42,267 nt of DNA from Anaerolineae bacterium (GTDB lineage: Bacteria > Chloroflexota > Anaerolineae > Fen-1058), in assembly GCA_003154115.1 (NCBI GenBank), contig PMCF01000237.1, forward strand, positions 1 to 42,267. Direction: 5' to 3'. The number at the start of each line of letters is the position of its first letter. Within the stretch, counting starts at the first letter, position 1. Shown here piece by piece: positions 2,472 to 35,825 of this stretch. The notes beneath the pieces are model-generated. The model saw nothing but the letters and a program-made list of their open reading frames with translations. It was not told where the DNA came from and searched no databases. A program made the translations under genes and the position numbers.

Positions 2472-3804
2472 TCCCACCTGCCGGCGGCCCACTGGCAGCG
2501 CGCCTGTAACATGATTTCAGCGTGTTCGACTAACCAGAACTTGCCCGCGCCTTTGATGCGCAGATTCACCACCTGCCGGAGTAAACTCTCGACCGCGCCG
2601 CTCCCAAGGGGTAATTTCAAAGCGGCGACCTGCGCGTACTGCAAGCGCGGCAGACGGGTTTGAAAGTAGTCGAGTTCTTGGGTCAAGCTGGCCGCCCGCT
2701 GGGGTTTGGCTTGAGCGCACCGGGTTTGCATGTGTCGCAACAAGGCTGCCGCGTGGCCCCGCTTGAGCTTCGCACAGGCTGGCTTGAACCACTTTCGCGC
2801 GGCGTTCGAATTGGAAAAGGCGACCTCGGCAAAGGCACTCAGATGCTCGGTCGCATGATAAAAGTCGAGCAACTCGATGAGTCGGTCGGCGGGCAGCCCC
2901 AGTCGCAACAGGAGCGCGGGAATCCGCTCCCACAATGGTCAGGACTTTGGGTTCTTTCCATTCACCCGAGTAACCATGCCGTCCGCTGGCTTTGCGCCGC
3001 CCGCCTTTGGTGCGCCGCAACCGCGCGTGGCCGCCATCCGCCGACAGCACCCCCCGTTGACCGGCCAGAAGTTGCCCTTCTGGCAAGGTGCCGTGCTGCA
3101 CTTGGTCCAGTTGGCGCTGGCGCAGCTCCAGCCCGACTTGGCCAAACCGGTAGGTCAAGCGCGCGATGCGTTTCGCGCTCAGAATGATCCCCCAGGCGTG
3201 CAAAGTGTCGCGGGCCGCTTCAAACGAGGCTTGGAGTACTCCGTATTTAGCCACTGTCGTCCAGACCAGGGGCGTGAGACCTTCCTCAATCCCCAGCCAA
3301 GCCAAGAACGGATAAAAGTTGGCGTCTTGGGCGACGCCCCGATGGCCCGGGTGCCGCGCGCGCTTGCTCTGGCGGCGGGTCACGACATAGGGGACCTTGA
3401 GTCGCACCGCGACATTCCCGATGGTCAGGACCGTGACCATACGCTGCCCATGCCCTTGGCTGCCCCCCCAGCGCAGCCGCTGGGGGGCTGTCGTCTGGGC
3501 TTCAGCCGAACACGTCAAGCGGTGCAAGAGCAACGCGATGCACTGCCTGGCCAGCACCAGCGCCGCCCAGACAATCTGCGCCTCGCGCGCTTTGAACTGG
3601 CAGCCATCCCACGTCTGGGCCTCGCCGATCTCCAGCAATGGGACGACGCTAGTCCGAAAGGCTTGGAGAGCTTGGTCAAAATCGAGCAAGGCGGCGGTAT
3701 TGGACTCCACGATAGACGCTCCTGGCAGTATAGGCTCAGGCGTCATTCTACCAAATGCAGGTCACGGCCCCAATGGACTGACCCAACTTTTCCGCTTTGC
3801 ACCC
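2403..3804 (-). mobile_element. Degenerate ISKra4-like insertion sequence, 1402 bp
   Basis: The two ends, 2403-2429 and 3778-3804, are perfect 27-bp inverted repeats (outer end GGGTGCAAAGCGG). Between them lies a broken transposase gene on the minus strand. I see no convincing target-site duplication: the left flank ends in ...GAATGGA and the right flank starts CGTTACT. The element sits in the effector region of the orphan Rhs cassette. Family assignment rests on the transposase C-terminus. Confidence 0.85.
2426..3746 (-). pseudogene. ISKra4-type transposase, frameshifted with probable internal deletion
   Basis: The N-terminal part reads from ATG at 3746 and contains a likely catalytic Asp in LSADGGHARLRR. 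It runs in frame to KEPKVLTIV near 2940. From 2935 the coding signal moves to another frame: WERIPALLLRLGL, then LLDFYHATEHL and the C-terminal block LPLGSGAVESLLRQVVNLR...KGAGKFW, typical of ISKra4 transposases. In that family a segment of roughly 70-80 residues holding the next conserved Asp normally lies between the two blocks, so a deletion as well as a frame change is inferred. The enzyme is almost certainly inactive. The last codons overlap the left inverted repeat. Confidence 0.8.
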
Positions 3805-8847: not shown

Positions 8848-8938
8848 GTAGTCGAGTAGTCGGGTAATTCTCTCTTTCGCAGAGCCGTAGCTGGTGGGGA
8901 AACTACGTGACTACCAGACGATTGGACGATGCGACTAC
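8848..8938. repeat. TAGTC-word repeat between pilD and pilN
   Basis: GTAGTCGAGTAGTCGGGTAA at 8848-8867 is followed at 8901-8938 by a stretch of GACTAC words in opposite orientation, so the segment can fold on itself. It belongs to the same word family as the insert in the cobalamin riboswitch at 33273-33354. It fills the 115-base gap between two operon genes. Confidence 0.6.
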
Positions 8939-15919: not shown

Positions 15920-16252
15920 TCACGGCGACGGCGTCGTGCGCGTGATGATGATCGTCACCGTGAGATTGTTGATCTGAGTCTGTGTTATCACCGAAGAACC
16001 GATCGTCGTCAGCGTCTGAGTCAAGCCGCCATATTGCAGCCACCACAGGCCGCGTTCGATCCCGGCATCGGACGAATAGCGCTGCGTCGTCTGATTGATC
16101 GCCGACGTGGTCGCACGCTGGCTGGTGCTGGCAAAATACAGAAAGCCCGACACCAACACCACGCCCAACAGCAGCGCCAGCAGGACCAGCACCAGCGCCT
16201 GGCCGCTCTCGGAATTTCTGATTTCTGATTTTTGATTGCTGATTGCTGACAT
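15920..16252 (-). CDS. PilX-like minor pilin component
   Basis: 110 residues. The start has a polar stretch, then SGQALVLVLLALLLGVVLVS, the N-terminal hydrophobic helix typical of PilX-type proteins, which lack Glu5. The globular part is very short. ATG 16252 is used; a GTG three codons earlier is possible and neither has a clear ribosome site. The first ~15 codons (SAISNQKSEIRNSES) come from the 'TTTCTGATTTCTGATT' word repeat found in spacers elsewhere in this window, so the leader appears to be made from repeat DNA. Confidence 0.7.
   Translation of the reverse strand: MSAISNQKSEIRNSESGQALVLVLLALLLGVVLVSGFLYFASTSQRATTSAINQTTQRYSSDAGIERGLWWLQYGGLTQTLTTIGSSVITQTQINNLTVTIIITRTTPSP
16216..16252. 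repeat. CTGATT-word repeat forming the PilX-like leader
   Basis: Tandem words TTCTGATTTCTGATTTTTGATTGCTGATTGCTGA lie over the start of the PilX-like gene. Related word runs occur at 18717-18735, 21660-21706 and 35533-35563, all in spacers or gene ends. Confidence 0.6.
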
Positions 16253-21629: not shown

Positions 21630-21684
21630 GTTGACTGATAATTTAACATTGTCGAGGTAGTCAGCATTTAGCAATCAGCATTGA

Positions 21685-23799
21685 TCATTGATCATTGTTC
21701 ATTGATTGCAATTGAGTCCGGCACGCTTCGCAATCGGGCGCGAGTTGCAACGCCGCCTGAAAAGCCTGCCGCGCTTCGACGCGTTGGCCTAACGCTTGAT
21801 AAGCTAAGCCGCTGTCAAAGTAAGCGGCCGAGAACTTAGGATCGATCTTGAGCGCAGCGGCGTATTGATCCAGCGCCTCCGGATAACGACCGTGATTGTG
21901 ATAGACATGGCCCAGATCATCACGCAGCGCCGCAGCAGTCGGCGCGAGCGCAAACGCGCGTCGATAATAGGTTTCGGCCAGCGGCAAACGGGCCGGATCG
22001 ATATCGGACCAGAAAGCATACAGCACGCCGCTGTTGGAATTCACTTCCAGATCGAGCGGCAGCCAACGCCGCGCAGTGGCTAACGCGCGCTCGGCGGCTT
22101 CGAGCAATTTCACGCGTAGTTCCGGCTGATCGGCGGGCAACGCGCGAGCCAGATTGTAAAAGGCTTCGCCGCGAAACTGCTGATACGCCGCCTGCCACGG
22201 AATCAGCTCGATCGCCTGATCGTACCGATCGATGCTTTTCTGCCAGGCCTGGTTTTGATCCAAAGCGCGCGCCTCACCGGCCAGCGCATTGGCCCAGATC
22301 GACGCCACATCCACGCGCAGCGCCACAATGATGATTACGATCGCGCCTGCCACAGAAACCAAGAGTTTGATACGCTGTTGTTGGTCCGACAGTTGAGCGT
22401 CCCCCTGTCGTCCGTCGTCTAACGCCGGTGGTCGTGTTAACAGCAGTGCCACACACAACCAGGCCAGCATGCCCGTCGTCGTCAGCGTAAACGCGAACTG
22501 CACTTCGACCACATGCGCGGCTAACGCCGCCAGCGGCGCAGCGATCCAGGCCCGCTGAGCCAGCGATTCGGATGCACGCCACTGCTGAAGTCCGCGCCGC
22601 GCACAGACGAGGCCCAGCACCCCATAGGCCAATAAGCCCAGCCCACCCTGCATCGTCAGCACATCGAGTCCCTCGTTGTGAGCGCGATCCCACATGCTGC
22701 TGGGATCCTCGATGTGGCCCAATTCAGGCGGGTAAACTTGCATGTAAACGATCGCGGCTGTGTCTAACCCATAGCCTAGCACAGGCCGCAAAAAATGCCA
22801 AACATCGCCAGCGGGCACAACCGACGGCCAGGTGGTGATGACTCGCCCCACGGCCTGCCACAAGATCAATCGGACGCGCCCCGTGCCCGTCTGCGCATCC
22901 TGCGCGAAATTTAAGCGATTGATCACCGGCAGTGATGAGAGTGACGACGAGATACCTCCCGGCAAATTTAAGCCGATGGTCAACACGCTCAGGCCGATCA
23001 ACCCGATCAATGCGCCGGCGATCAGGAGCCGGCGATGACGCTGCCACAGCAACAATCCGGCAAAGAGGAGGCCGCCTGCAACTGCGCCCAACAAGGGCCC
23101 GCGACTCTGAGCTAACACCAACGCGGCCAGTTGGAAGATCACCGCCACGATCAAGCTCGTGCGCGCGATCTTTTTTCTGGCCCATGGTTCGACCAACGCA
23201 GCCAGCATAAAGGGCAGCACCATAATCAGATAGCCGCTCAGAAAAATTGGATTGCCCTGCGTGCCGCCCGGCCGCCATGTCAACCAGTTTTCGCCGAAGA
23301 CAAACGGTTCGACGATGGCCGTGATCGCAGTGAGTGTTCCTCCGATCACGATCGCCAGCAACAAACGGCGGCGTTGAGCCGGCGAGCGAAGATAGGTGAC
23401 GATCAATATCACCCAGATGATCTGCAGCAGCGCGAGGTAGACACCCTGCCCGCGAAAGAATGAGCCCCACACACTATCGACCGGGCTGATCGATGTCAGC
23501 GTCGACAGGATGAGGCTGGCCGCCACGAGAAACAAAGGCCACGTGTTTCTCAAAAATACATTCGCTCCTCGCCTGGCGGAGGCGAGGAGCGAAGTATGAG
23601 AGTTACTTTGAAGCCGGGCGATCAGGTGCAGCGCCAGCATCACCAACACCAGCGCTCGAAAGAGTGCTGATCGCGGTTCGTCATACACTAAGCCATTCAG
23701 ATTGAACAGCGGTACCACCGCGACGGCGATTAGCCAGCCTGCCTCCACACCGAGTGATGCCACACGACTAATGCGAGACAGGATATTTGGACTTGGCAC
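21685..23799 (-). CDS. Wzy_C-type membrane protein with TPR tail, candidate pilin O-oligosaccharyltransferase
   Basis: 704 residues. About 12 membrane helices fill residues 15-500, with the large loop typical of O-antigen ligase / PglL proteins in the middle (WDRAHNEGLDVLTMQGGLG, matching the Wzy_C H-N motif). The last ~180 residues are tetratricopeptide repeats (ALDQYAAALKIDPKFSAAYF and similar). Such proteins transfer lipid-linked glycans to lipid A, polymers or pilin. The place between the pilin gene and the motor operon favours pilin glycosylation, but this is inferred from context. The start is a GTG without a clear ribosome site. The last codons (SMNNDQ) run into an AATGATCAATG word repeat. 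Confidence 0.75.
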   Translation of the reverse strand: MPSPNILSRISRVASLGVEAGWLIAVAVVPLFNLNGLVYDEPRSALFRALVLVMLALHLIARLQSNSHTSLLASARRGANVFLRNTWPLFLVAASLILSTLTSISPVDSVWGSFFRGQGVYLALLQIIWVILIVTYLRSPAQRRRLLLAIVIGGTLTAITAIVEPFVFGENWLTWRPGGTQGNPIFLSGYLIMVLPFMLAALVEPWARKKIARTSLIVAVIFQLAALVLAQSRGPLLGAVAGGLLFAGLLLWQRHRRLLIAGALIGLIGLSVLTIGLNLPGGISSSLSSLPVINRLNFAQDAQTGTGRVRLILWQAVGRVITTWPSVVPAGDVWHFLRPVLGYGLDTAAIVYMQVYPPELGHIEDPSSMWDRAHNEGLDVLTMQGGLGLLAYGVLGLVCARRGLQQWRASESLAQRAWIAAPLAALAAHVVEVQFAFTLTTTGMLAWLCVALLLTRPPALDDGRQGDAQLSDQQQRIKLLVSVAGAIVIIIVALRVDVASIWANALAGEARALDQNQAWQKSIDRYDQAIELIPWQAAYQQFRGEAFYNLARALPADQPELRVKLLEAAERALATARRWLPLDLEVNSNSGVLYAFWSDIDPARLPLAETYYRRAFALAPTAAALRDDLGHVYHNHGRYPEALDQYAAALKIDPKFSAAYFDSGLAYQALGQRVEARQAFQAALQLAPDCEACRTQLQSMNNDQ

Positions 23800-26749: not shown

Positions 26750-27811
26750 ATGAGCCAACATCATTCTGACGATCACGACGACCACGATCACAACCATGAC
26801 CACGAACATGCGGAATCAGGGCTCAAAGGCTGGCTGGGGCATCTCTTCAGTCCGCACGAGCACGGCCATTACGCCACCGCGCTCGATCCGGCGATGTCGA
26901 ATGCGCGCGGTATCTGGGCGGTAAAAATCTCGCTGGTCGTGCTGCTGCTCACGGCGGTGTTTCAACTGATCATCGTGGCGATTAGCGGGAGCGTGGCGCT
27001 GCTGGCCGATACGATTCACAATTTTTCCGATGCGCTAACGGCCATCCCCTTATGGATTGCTTTCACGTTGGCGCGTCGACCGCGCAACGATCGGTATACC
27101 TACGGCTACGGCCGCGCTGAAGATCTGGCCGGGGTGCTGATCGTCGTCATGATCTTTCTCAGCGCGCTGGAGGTCTTTCAGCAATCGATCGATAGACTCT
27201 TGCATCCGCAGCCTCTCAGCAATTTAGGCTGGGTGGCCGCGGCGGCCATTATCGGTTTTATCGGGAATGAAGCCGTCGCCACGCTGCGGACTCGCGTCGG
27301 GCGTGAAATCGGATCGGCAGCGCTGGTGGCCGATGGGCTGCACGCGCGTGCCGACGGCTTCACCTCGCTCGGCGTGCTCATCGGCGTGATCGGCGTGGCG
27401 CTCGGTTTTCCCTTGGCCGATCCATTGGTCGGATTGTTCATCGGAGTGGCGATCTTGATCGTGGTGTGGAATGCCGCGCGTGATATGTGGTACCGCTTGA
27501 TGGATGCGGTCGATCCCGCCGTCAGCCAATCGATCGCGCAGACGGCGGCGCAAGTGCCGGGCGTGCAGGCGGTGCATGACGTCACCATCCGCTGGCTGGG
27601 TCATCGCCAGCGCGCCGAGTTAAATGTGGATGTGCCGGGTGAATGGCCCACCACGCAGAGCCATCAGGTTGCCGAAGATGTGCGGCACGCCTTGTTTCAC
27701 GCGCAGCCCGCACTGGTGGAAGTGATGGTGCATATCGATCCTGAGGGCGATGCGTATCACGCTACTACGGCGCATCATCGGGAGGCGTCCCACGGGGAGG
27801 CTGCGCACTAA
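26750..27811 (+). CDS. Cation diffusion facilitator, zinc-type
   Basis: 353 residues. The N-terminus is a His/Asp-rich metal-catching tail (HHSDDHDDHDHNHDHEH) and the C-terminus has a second His-rich end. Six membrane helices lie between about 55 and 245. Helix 2 carries ADTIHNFSD and helix 5 ADGLHARAD, the two HxxxD pairs that form the tetrahedral zinc site. The cytoplasmic ferredoxin-like domain follows (VPGVQAVHDVTIRW). It exports Zn2+ (possibly Co2+/Cd2+) by proton antiport. AAAGGAAG precedes ATG 26750. The last 25 bases before and into the stop are repeated in inverted form at 29222-29246. Confidence 0.93.
   Translation: MSQHHSDDHDDHDHNHDHEHAESGLKGWLGHLFSPHEHGHYATALDPAMSNARGIWAVKISLVVLLLTAVFQLIIVAISGSVALLADTIHNFSDALTAIPLWIAFTLARRPRNDRYTYGYGRAEDLAGVLIVVMIFLSALEVFQQSIDRLLHPQPLSNLGWVAAAAIIGFIGNEAVATLRTRVGREIGSAALVADGLHARADGFTSLGVLIGVIGVALGFPLADPLVGLFIGVAILIVVWNAARDMWYRLMDAVDPAVSQSIAQTAAQVPGVQAVHDVTIRWLGHRQRAELNVDVPGEWPTTQSHQVAEDVRHALFHAQPALVEVMVHIDPEGDAYHATTAHHREASHGEAAH
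27785..27809 (+). repeat. 25-bp inverted repeat, left copy
   Basis: The bases 27785-27809 are the exact reverse complement of 29222-29246. The left copy covers the last codons of the CDF gene and the first bases of its stop; the two enclose the MFS gene. Confidence 0.85.
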
Positions 27812-27833
27812 AACGTAATGCGTGAAACGCAAT

Positions 27834-29174: not shown

Positions 29175-29221
29175 CGAGTGAAAAAGGCCAATCTCCTGAA
29201 GCCCGTCGCGCTTGACGCATC

Positions 29222-29246
29222 AGTGCGCAGCCTCCCCGTGGGACGC
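29222..29246 (-). repeat. 25-bp inverted repeat, right copy, flanked by GACGCATCAG direct repeats
   Basis: This is the exact reverse complement of 27785-27809. The sequence GACGCATCAG occurs at 29214-29223 and again at 29242-29251, bracketing an 18-base core. The right direct repeat includes the stop of the adenosyltransferase gene. Confidence 0.8.
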
Positions 29247-29247
29247 A

Positions 29248-29811
29248 TCAGATTCTCGAATTCCACAACGCTTCCGGCCCGTCATGCTGCTGATTCTCGT
29301 AGCGCGCCATCATAAACAGCAGATCCGATAAGCGATTGAGATACGGCATCACCAGTCCTCCGATCGGCTCTTCGCGCGCCAGGGTGAGCACATCACGTTC
29401 GGCGCGGCGGCAGGTGGTGCGCGCCACGTGCAAGTGCGCGGCCCCGATCGATCCGCCGGGCAGGATGAAGTTTTTCAACGACCCGGTGGCTTCAATCAAC
29501 TCGTCAATCCACTGCTCCAACTGGGCCACGTGCCGCTCCTCGATCTGCGGCAGCCGGTAGGCGCGCTTGTCTTCTTCGCGGAACGCCAGATCTGACCCGA
29601 GGTGGAACAATTCGTTCTGAATGACGGGCAGCATTTCCATCAGGCGCGAGCTGAGGCCGTGCGCCACTGCTACGCCGATGACGGAGTTGAGCTCGTCGAC
29701 GGTGCCATACGCAGCGACGCGCGCCGAATCCTTGGGCACGCGCTGCCCGCCGCCCAGTGAGGTCTCACCGTCATCGCCTTTGCGCGTATAGATGCTGGTC
29801 AAACGTGGCAT
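29248..29811 (-). CDS. PduO-type cob(I)alamin adenosyltransferase
   Basis: 187 residues. The ATP-binding start [20 protein letters not shown] and the later block [11 protein letters not shown]-like ([15 protein letters not shown]) with [14 protein letters not shown] are diagnostic of the PduO/MMAB family. It transfers the adenosyl group of ATP to cob(I)alamin to make coenzyme B12. ATG 29811 gives the family's normal N-terminus; upstream codons are an ACACAGATT word repeat. It is the last gene of the cobalamin uptake unit, about 205 bases after btuD, and is probably under the same riboswitch unless the spacer hairpin ends transcription. Confidence 0.93.
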
Positions 29812-29827
29812 GTCTGAATCCTGTTTG

Positions 29828-29900
29828 GACACAGATGAACACAGATTCACATCGATAATTCAAAATCTGCGTAAATCCGTGTAATCCGTGTCCTAGATCG
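29828..29900. repeat. ACACAGATT / AATCCGTGT word repeat
   Basis: The words GACACAGATGAACACAGATT and CGTAAATCCGTGTAATCCGTG lie on either side of a short AT-rich loop. Related words (ACGAATTCACACGAA, GATTCGTGTGAATTCGTGG) occur at 37330-37375, 37577-37603 and 39401-39427. Confidence 0.6.
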
Positions 29901-30864: not shown

Positions 30865-31995
30865 TTACCAGAACGTCTGCCGCTTGGTGCGGCGCAGCAG
30901 CCACAAAAAGAACGGCGCGCCGAACATGGCCGTTACCACGCCCAACGGCACTTCTTGCGGTGCGATGATGGTGCGCGCCAGAATATCGGCCAGCAGCAGC
31001 AGCGCTGCGCCCGCGATGATCGATAACGGGATCAACCGCCGGTAATCGCCGCCCCATAGCAAGCGTACCACATGCGGCACGGCGAGTCCTACAAAGCCGA
31101 TGATGCCGGCGTAGGCCACGGCCGCCGCAGTCGTGAGCGACGCTGCGATGACGACGATCAGCTTCACCCGATCGACGTGCAGGCCCAGCTGCTGCGCTTG
31201 ATCGTCGCCAAATTGCAGCACGTTTAGCGCGCGTCCCATCAAAGCGAGCGCAATCAGTCCGATGATAATGTAAGGCAGGATGGCGATGACGGGCATCCAG
31301 CCGCCAAAGGCGAAGCCTCCCAACATCCACGAGATGGCACGGCGCAGTTCCGCCTGCGAACTCAGCATCAAGAACGTGGTGATCGCCGTGGTGAATGAGC
31401 CGATCGCCACACCGGCCAATATCAATGTGAAGACGGGTGTGGCGCGGCCCACACGCGCCAGACCATAGACCACCCCCACGGTGATCAGCGCCCCGACAAA
31501 CGCCGCGATCGGAATGACCAGCGCGCCGAGGATCGTGGCGGGCCAGTGCAGCGCCATCGCGATCACGGCACCTAGCCCTGCGCCCGAGGCCACACCGATG
31601 ATGTACGGATCGGCCAGCGGGTTGCGGAACAGTCCCTGATATGCCGCGCCACTGCCGCTCAACGCCGCGCCCGCCAGCAGAATCAACACCGTACGCGGCA
31701 GGCGGATGTCAAACAAGATCGTCTCGAAGGTAGCGGGCCACGTGGGCGTAATGTGCAAGAAAGGCAAGCGCGAGGCGATGATGCGCGCCACTTCGAACGG
31801 ATGGATCGCCACCGCGCCGATGGCCGCGCTGAGCAAGATCGCGGCGATCAGTAAGAGGAAGCACCAGACAAACGGAGACAGAGGGAGGGAGCGACGGAGG
31901 GAGGGAGAGACGGAGGGATAGGGAGACGGAGAGTTGTCCTCTCTCTGTCCCTCATTCCCCTTGTCCCTCAATCCCTCATTCCCTCTGTCGCTCAT
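30865..31995 (-). CDS. btuC: Cobalamin ABC transporter permease (FecCD family)
   Basis: 376 residues, about 10 membrane helices. The family motifs RLPRTVLILLAGAALSGSGA, then FRNPLADPYIIGVASGAGLG and GFVGLAVPHVVRLLWG (coupling helix) are clear. Compared with usual BtuC proteins the N-terminus carries about 40 extra polar residues (SDRGNEGLRDKGNEGQRED...PSLRRSLPLSP) before helix 1; they are encoded by a GAGGGA-type word repeat. The start at 31995 follows GAAGGA and lies 13 bases after btuF, so the extension is probably translated. Confidence 0.9.
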   Translation of the reverse strand: MSDRGNEGLRDKGNEGQREDNSPSPYPSVSPSLRRSLPLSPFVWCFLLLIAAILLSAAIGAVAIHPFEVARIIASRLPFLHITPTWPATFETILFDIRLPRTVLILLAGAALSGSGAAYQGLFRNPLADPYIIGVASGAGLGAVIAMALHWPATILGALVIPIAAFVGALITVGVVYGLARVGRATPVFTLILAGVAIGSFTTAITTFLMLSSQAELRRAISWMLGGFAFGGWMPVIAILPYIIIGLIALALMGRALNVLQFGDDQAQQLGLHVDRVKLIVVIAASLTTAAAVAYAGIIGFVGLAVPHVVRLLWGGDYRRLIPLSIIAGAALLLLADILARTIIAPQEVPLGVVTAMFGAPFFLWLLRRTKRQTFW

Positions 31996-32008: not shown

Positions 32009-33028
32009 CTACTTGAACAGTTCAGGATGCAACAACTTCGCCATCTGCTCCAGCCCGTCGATCAAACGCGGGCCGGGACGGCTGATCAGGTTATCGTCGA
32101 ATGCGAAGATTTGTTTGCTCTTGACCGCGTCGAGCGCGTTCCAGCCGGGGCGCTGCGCCACCGCTTCGGCCGTCACGCCATACAACGCATCACCCAGCAC
32201 GATGAGGTTGGGATTCTGCTTGACCAATTCTTCCGAACTGATCTGCGCGAACGCGCCTTTCAATTCCGCGCCGATGTTCTTGCCGCCCGCCAGGCCGATC
32301 ACCAAATCAATGAAGGTGCCGGGGCCGCTGGTGTACGGCTTGGTCGGATCGGTGGCATCGATCTCGTAGAACACGGTGGGCGCATCTTTGGCCGCCGCCA
32401 ATTTCTTGACCACTGAATCATACCGCGCTTTCAGCGATTCGTTCAACTTCGCCGCCTCGGCCGATCGGCCCGTCAACTTTCCCACGGTTTCCAGATTGGC
32501 GTAGAGATCATCAAACGCCTTGGGGTTTTGCAGATAGTAGACGGTGAGTTTCAAATCCTCCAGCGCCTTCACCTGTTCCGGGCTGTTGATCTCGGCCGCC
32601 AGGATCAGATCGGGCTTGAGGGCGACAATCGCTTCGGTGTTGATCTTCTGGAAGACCGATCCGATGCTGGTGACGTTCTTCGCTTCCGCCGGATAATCGG
32701 ACAATTCTTCACGCCCGACGACTTGCTTCCCGGCGCCGAGCGCGAAGAGAATCTCGGTGTTGGACGGCGCGATCGAGACAATGCGCTGGGCGGGCGCGGC
32801 CAACTCGATCGATCGTCCCAGTCCATCGGTGAGTTTAATTGGCTCTGGGGCAGGCGTCGCCGTTGGGGCGGGTGGCTCGGTCGGGGCGACCGTAGGCGCA
32901 ATGGTCGGCGCTTGAGTCGGAGCCTGGGTCGGCGACGTAGTCGCAGTCGGCCTGGGGGTAGCCGCCGGGCTGCAGGCGCTCAGCATGATCGTGATCAGCA
33001 ACAGTAGAGACAGCAATTTGCGAGACAT
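32009..33028 (-). CDS. btuF: Cobalamin-binding lipoprotein of the ABC importer
   Basis: 339 residues. It has a lipoprotein signal (MSRKLLSLLLLITIMLSAC, lipobox LSAC), a Thr/Pro/Ala-rich linker to about residue 62 and a class III substrate-binding domain (LTDGLGRSIELAAPAQRIVSIAPSNTEILFALGA). The order riboswitch-F-C-D and the adenosyltransferase at the end indicate a corrinoid substrate. The start at 33028 has AGGAGA 7 bases upstream; an open frame further upstream runs over the terminator and is not used. Lipid anchoring instead of a free periplasmic protein fits a monoderm cell. Confidence 0.92.
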   Translation of the reverse strand: MSRKLLSLLLLITIMLSACSPAATPRPTATTSPTQAPTQAPTIAPTVAPTEPPAPTATPAPEPIKLTDGLGRSIELAAPAQRIVSIAPSNTEILFALGAGKQVVGREELSDYPAEAKNVTSIGSVFQKINTEAIVALKPDLILAAEINSPEQVKALEDLKLTVYYLQNPKAFDDLYANLETVGKLTGRSAEAAKLNESLKARYDSVVKKLAAAKDAPTVFYEIDATDPTKPYTSGPGTFIDLVIGLAGGKNIGAELKGAFAQISSEELVKQNPNLIVLGDALYGVTAEAVAQRPGWNALDAVKSKQIFAFDDNLISRPGPRLIDGLEQMAKLLHPELFK

Positions 33029-33153: not shown

Positions 33154-33183
33154 AAAGCCCCTTGTCGCAAAACAAAGGGCTTT
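33154..33183 (-). terminator. Expression-platform terminator of the cobalamin riboswitch
   Basis: On the minus strand AAAGCCCTT pairs with AAGGGGCTTT and is followed by TTCGTTTC. It lies after the B12 aptamer and before btuF, where a switch terminator is expected. Two further GC hairpins lie at 33072-33123. Confidence 0.7.
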
Positions 33184-33216
33184 AGATCGATCAACTGGTA
33201 CAATCAGGCCAGTGGC

Positions 33217-33450
33217 GTCCACCCCCTTTCGGCGAGGTTTGTGGTCGGCAATGGGGGCGGGCGACCTGGCTTGTTAGTCTTATAGTCTTGTAGTCGTCTA
33301 GTCCCGTAGTTTTTCGACTACTTGACTATAAGACTATTCGACTACCTGACTAACTTACAGTTGCGCGACAGCACCGGACTTGCACCGGCTTCGCCATTAA
33401 CGTCCTGACCATCCGGGGTTACAGGACACCCACACTGCTATTCAGTCGTG
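33217..33450 (-). promoter_or_regulatory. Cobalamin (AdoCbl) riboswitch with an 82-base repeat insert
   Basis: Reading the minus strand, the conserved core is present: GAAGCCGGTGCAAGTCCGGT, then GCGCAACTGT, and the B12 box as AAGCCAGGTCGCCCGCC (33272-33256). Between the core and the B12 box the peripheral arm is replaced by a TAGTC-word hairpin (33273-33354). A consensus promoter lies directly upstream and a terminator downstream. It should shut btuFCD when adenosylcobalamin is abundant. Confidence 0.9.
33273..33354. repeat. TAGTC-word hairpin inside the riboswitch
   Basis: The 82 bases begin GTTAGTC and end GACTAAC; both halves consist of TAGTC/GACTA words and can pair into one long imperfect stem around TTTTTCG. 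The same word family occurs at 8848-8938. Confidence 0.8.
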
Positions 33451-35695: not shown

Positions 35696-35722
35696 CTTAC
35701 CACAATTAAATATAGCAACACT

Positions 35723-35825
35723 CTTATCCAGAGAGGCGGAGGGACCGGCCCGATGATGCCTCGACAACCTGTCCAAGTGACAAGGTGCCAATTCCGGCAG
35801 TAGATTCTGGAAGATGAGAGAACGT
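35723..35825 (+). promoter_or_regulatory. SAM-I riboswitch
   Basis: The conserved elements appear in order: CTTATCCAGAGAGGCGGAGG, GACCGGCCCGATGATGCC, CGACAACC, AAGGTGCCAATTCC and the closing AAGATGAGAG. This is the S-box that binds S-adenosylmethionine and promotes termination before methionine genes. Confidence 0.95.

Follow-up and report, generated by a model that had tools for sequence, protein, structure and literature searches.

Degenerate repeat words in the P6 accessory arm of a cobalamin riboswitch from Chloroflexota

Background

Short tandemly repeated repetitive (STRR) sequences were reportedly described by Vioque in 1997 within the RNase P RNA of heterocyst-forming cyanobacteria. 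In the P6b hairpin of the Nostoc tRNA-Leu(UAA) group I intron (trnL), degenerate words of 7 nucleotides (nt) are paired across the two arms, and word classes, which yield similar structures, have replaced each other whole (PMC4476775). Heptamers of the TAACTGA type form abundant intergenic arrays in scattered lineages of Beggiatoaceae, Cyanobacteria and Bacteroidetes; unlike the arm considered here, these arrays are direct, with many lying beside start codons, and the accessible portion of the report places none inside structured RNAs (PMC4679880). In Streptococcus pneumoniae, BOX elements sit between T-box riboswitches (PMC3049150). Here we describe an 82 nt hairpin of octamer words that occupies the P6 accessory region of a cobalamin riboswitch in an Anaerolineae bacterium (Chloroflexota; assembly GCA_003154115.1), on the minus strand of contig PMCF01000237.1, the whole 42,267 nt of which was analysed and is termed the window.

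The P6 accessory region is the segment known for variation among cobalamin riboswitches, and the hairpin sits exactly there. It resembles Nostoc P6b in that both structured RNAs carry a peripheral hairpin with words paired across it and have arms replaced as wholes. It differs in belonging to a Chloroflexota cobalamin riboswitch rather than a cyanobacterial intron, in using octamers as well as heptamers, and in having a measured link between the words of the arm and those of the genome. The arm works like the Nostoc P6b type without being a member of it, as both RNA and phylum differ. Word-built arms of structured RNAs are already known from the trnL intron and, reportedly, from cyanobacterial RNase P RNA; the riboswitch, the phylum and the comparative evidence appear to be new. 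No description of genome repeats forming a P6 accessory arm, and no report of such word-built arms in a riboswitch or in Chloroflexota, was found in the open-access literature searched.

Results and discussion

Anatomy of the word arm

The Rfam covariance model for cobalamin riboswitches (RF00174) matches the minus strand at 33448-33239 over its full length (positions 1-189), with a score of 58 bits (E 5.6e-12; gathering score 31.5) and good alignment at the core sequences GGUGCAAGUCC and CGCAACUGUAA and at the B12 box, AGCCAGG. A score over the curated cut-off, a B12 box with a J6/3 core, and a neighbouring B12 gene together identify the element as a cobalamin riboswitch. The hairpin (33273-33354) lies precisely between the J6/3 strand CAACUGUAA (33363-33355), which abuts it on the 5' side and is invariant in most relatives, and the start of the B12 box (33265-33271, read from 33271), one A further on. 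It is built of (R)TAGTCNN octamers, five per arm; read on the minus strand from 33354 to 33273, the sequence runs GUUAGUC AG GUAGUC GAA UAGUC UUA UAGUC AA GUAGUC...GACUAAC with a strict 8 nt period (periodicity p 0/300). The minimum free energy is -37.2 kcal/mol (z = -6.6), and none of 200 dinucleotide shuffles folds equally well. Word positions are paired in the predicted fold, the 2-3 bases between words being mostly unpaired, and the window holds eight TAGTC word pairs against 0.02 expected. As the spacers are non-complementary, neither arm seems to have arisen recently as an inverted copy of the other.

A sequence-only reading of the window had proposed that a TAGTC-word hairpin at 33273-33354 takes the place of a peripheral arm of a cobalamin riboswitch whose core and B12 box are intact, and that the same words fill the pilD-pilN gap. 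The coordinates proved exact to the base and the remainder of this description also stands, the covariance search that it recommended placing the segment in the variable P6 accessory region.

Recurrence and turnover at the same site

In most relatives of the class a simple hairpin, about 14-40 nt long, occupies this position. Across 94 arms the length ranges from 14 to 128 nt, and a basal stem closes 88 of them, where about 38 would be expected from shuffled sequences: the sequence of the arm is free, whereas its pairing is not. The sequence-only reading would have been undone by a conserved aptamer stem here; the lack of sequence conservation speaks for it, and the near-universal closing stem against it. 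Its description of the arrangement as rare is not supported, since the same arm carries arrays of 7 or 8 nt words in many genera. At a single cut-off, and counting one cobalamin switch per genome, such arrays were found in 11 of 51 relatives, against 1 of 45 RNase P RNAs and 0 of 22 thiamine pyrophosphate (TPP) riboswitches, the last drawn mostly from repeat-rich genomes; control periods of 10 and 11 gave 2/51, 1/45 and 0/22, respectively. On the RNase P and TPP counts we reject the view that words are placed in structured RNAs generally. The cyanobacterial RNase P STRR are reportedly likewise dispersed short tandem words inside a structured RNA gene, in a different RNA and phylum. The sole array among the 45 RNase P RNAs, that of G010 (L134), consists of the heptamers GCTGATG / GCGGATA and is similar to the cyanobacterial STRR.

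Octamer arms of TAGTC, TAGTG or TAGTT words are present in families f1, f27, f35 and f39, with a periodicity p of 0/300 for the hairpins of most members. Heptamer arms are formed by CTAGCNN (G001), TRGCNRA (G051), YRTCGCN (G022), TTAGCNN (G063) and ATGAATT (G233 and G253). In the last two (L206 and L208), the arm is a near-perfect palindrome of the heptamer, and the sequence of the B12 box departs from the usual one (TTAGTCCGACTGCC).

Turnover is evident within genera. The five genomes examined from genus g29 differ in their arms, which comprise TAGTT octamers, TTAGC heptamers, a short stem and other words; in the window's own genus, g1, the arm is made of either TAGTC or CTAGC words, the whole arm being exchanged between G000 and G001. 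Such changes bear on the proposal that the TAGT hairpin has long been inherited vertically as part of the switch, its copy number drifting by 8 nt slippage and the dispersed copies being derived or independent. TAGT octamers occupy this position in four or more families, often with an identical basal GUUAGU/ACUAAC, as this proposal would predict. The differing words within g29 and g1 disfavour a single ancestral TAGT arm, however, as do the plain stems of many neighbours in the same families and the correspondence between the arm and the genome's word pool described below, and we regard it as unlikely.

It is very improbable that the hairpin is an added functional module, tuning the switch through protein binding or pausing, for example. 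The regular 8 nt spacing with internal loops and the retention of pairing would suit such a role, but the words vary between genomes, are absent from most relatives with an intact switch, and form arms differing widely in length.

Words of the switch and words of the genome

All 18 genomes with TAGT octamers in the switch have at least six further TAGT triples, and 17 have at least eight, compared with at least eight in 13 of the 54 genomes lacking TAGT in the switch (Fisher 1e-7), most of which have no dispersed TAGT arrays; permutation within four families also supports the link (p = 0.002). The window's own genus illustrates it: G000, with 54 TAGT and 1 TRGC, has the TAGTC arm, and G001, with 11 and 33, respectively, has the CTAGC arm. 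Genomes G236, G308 and G367 are TAGT-rich and have other arms. A word arm requires a genome with the words, but their presence does not guarantee one.

An unbiased census of 296 kb of the window's own genome, a draft of 7.7 Mb, found 14 period-7 and 5 period-8 arrays, with none in shuffled sequence and none at the control periods of 5, 10, 11 and 13. Such short, dispersed arrays of degenerate 7-8 nt words, far more numerous than chance would give, are STRR-like. Within the window, a dispersed TAGTC array lies at about 8848-8935, flanked by the Peptidase_A24 and PilN genes (the pilD-pilN gap), and folds no better than its shuffles (z 0.07). Heptamer arrays of CTGATTT (16211-16250) and AGCATTG / ATCATTG (21663-21704) occur near gene boundaries, and neither folds above shuffles. 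A dispersed TAGTC palindrome with NN at its centre (L018 near 1528; G000 C249:11789-11790) suggests that assemblies break at the longest such hairpins.

Pairing distinguishes arrays in the switch from those elsewhere. A fold z of -3 or below was found for 22/22 switch arrays against 5 of 31 dispersed TAGT arrays, taken from G000, G003 and G001. By a strict count, words are present on both strands in 16/22 switch arrays, whereas this is true of 8/31 dispersed arrays, 23 of the 31 being classed as one-armed. At the fifth word position, where genomes differ from one another, 70 of the 82 word pairs are complementary (C-G, U-A or G-C).

The sequence-only reading had called the hairpin a mobile-like insertion, and it could be envisaged that a palindromic mobile element of the miniature inverted-repeat transposable element (MITE), REP doublet forming hairpin (REPIN) or BOX type entered the arm and is merely tolerated. 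The dispersal of the words, the replacement of the complete arm between G000 and G001, and the precedent of BOX elements beside T-box riboswitches are consistent with this. BOX similarly joins a dispersed, structured repeat to a riboswitch leader, but it is a defined element between two riboswitches rather than within an aptamer arm (PMC3049150). Dispersed TAGTC copies, by contrast, have only the words in common: spacers vary within and between copies, and the copies compared have neither the fixed ends nor the common core sequence of MITE, REPIN or BOX families. Together with the predominance of one-armed copies, this leads us to reject a single mobile element as the principal explanation. 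Unrelated words also occupy the same site in other genomes. The mobile element account is improbable.

Probable rewriting of a pairing-constrained arm by genomic repeats

We consider it probable that the arm tolerates changes in length, is constrained to pair, and is recurrently rewritten by the genome's own degenerate repeats, as opposed to recording one rare mobile insertion. The anatomy, the recurrence at one site, the switch-genome word link, the turnover within genera and the over-representation of paired arrays at this position were observed directly. The sequence of the P6 accessory arm would be unconstrained, closure into a helix next to J6/3 and the B12 box being all that the arm requires; the degenerate 7 and 8 nt STRR-like arrays of genomes in this Chloroflexota class would repeatedly replace or lengthen it; and only paired, two-armed versions would be retained, since a strand left unpaired at this position would disrupt the binding core. 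We infer that it is selection on pairing, rather than the process by which arrays are born, that makes them two-armed. Words may enter through slippage or through template switching at word homology. Slippage alone could account for changes of length within one word class, while changes of word class within one genus suggest replacement of the whole arm, by analogy with what has been argued for the Nostoc trnL P6b arm (PMC4476775). A stronger version, which we hold only tentatively, is that the arm is a preferred acceptor site, repeatedly rewritten with lineage-specific words by a copying process that itself makes paired arms, such that it mirrors the current repeat vocabulary.

Several points weigh against the rewriting of a pairing-constrained arm by genomic repeats. 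Part of the cobalamin switch sample was picked partly by length, and family f39 adds nothing to the word-pool test, since nearly all of its genomes are TAGT-rich. The switch of G050 has TRGTC words, yet its genome has no TAGT triples. Two genomes gave most of the dispersed copies, and the z-scores of these copies are diluted by the flanks included with them, although the two-arm count is independent of flanks. Fifth-base pairs were taken from minimum-energy folds, which are biased towards complementarity.

In these switches a single arm has been exchanged dozens of times in nature while the ligand-binding RNA otherwise stayed constant, and how far riboswitch folding tolerates differences in arm length, sequence and pattern of mismatches should be directly readable from them. 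Degenerate heptamer and octamer repeats, long known yet unexplained, also gain a site with a clear pairing constraint, at which the gain, loss and change of words can be counted on a tree.

Expression platform and downstream operon

An intrinsic terminator, AAAGCCCUUUGU-UUUGCG-ACAAGGGGCUUU followed by UCGUUUC, lies on the minus strand at 33154-33183, about 88 nt beyond the B12 box, a spacing common to all five family members examined (G000-G004). L13 is part of the expression platform in cobalamin riboswitches, and the terminator loop is a candidate for it: in the window UUUUGCG is complementary to GCAAG of loop L5 (UGCAAGU, 33378-33384), as would be compatible with the usual L5-L13 contact. 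No such pairing is evident in G002-G004, whose L5 carries an additional stem. The idea first considered, that the hairpin had removed P13-L13, was ruled out by the location of L13 in the expression platform and by short arms being the class norm. In G002-G004 (L063, L064 and L065) a stem-loop is inserted in L5, as it is in L036, L040 and L049 of the same class. Comparison of five leader sequences points to CUGGC (33208-33212, minus strand), which can pair with GCCAG of the B12 box, as a candidate anti-aptamer strand.

The genes behind the terminator encode a btuF-like periplasmic binding protein (32009-33028, minus strand; PF01497, 1.6e-35), a btuC-like FecCD permease (30865-31995, minus strand; PF01032, 1.7e-93), the real start of which is probably downstream of 31877, an ATP-binding cassette (ABC) protein, and further downstream a cobalamin adenosyltransferase (29248-29850, minus strand; PF01923, 1.2e-61). 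The nearest named relatives of the btuF-like gene are from Chloroflexota, including Anaerolineales, and four relatives of this gene are also preceded by RF00174 matches in their genome contigs. The element is probably a cobalamin riboswitch of the working type that uses a transcription terminator as its platform and would regulate a B12-uptake operon. A second octamer-word hairpin, of UCCCUCNN (TCCCTCNN) / GAGGGA words, lies in the btuF-btuC gap of the same operon (31877-31989, minus strand; fold z -4.9).

Other features of the window

An S-adenosylmethionine (SAM) riboswitch at 35721-35820, a strong match (86 bits), precedes a gene for a pyridoxal phosphate (PLP)-dependent Cys/Met enzyme; no word array was seen in it. 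Inverted repeats of 44 nt, 84% identical, at 27782-27825 and 29206-29249 surround one 450-amino-acid reading frame in a way reminiscent of the termini of a small mobile unit, and a perfect inverted repeat of 27 base pairs (2403-2429 and 3778-3804) surrounds a gene of about 1.2 kb.
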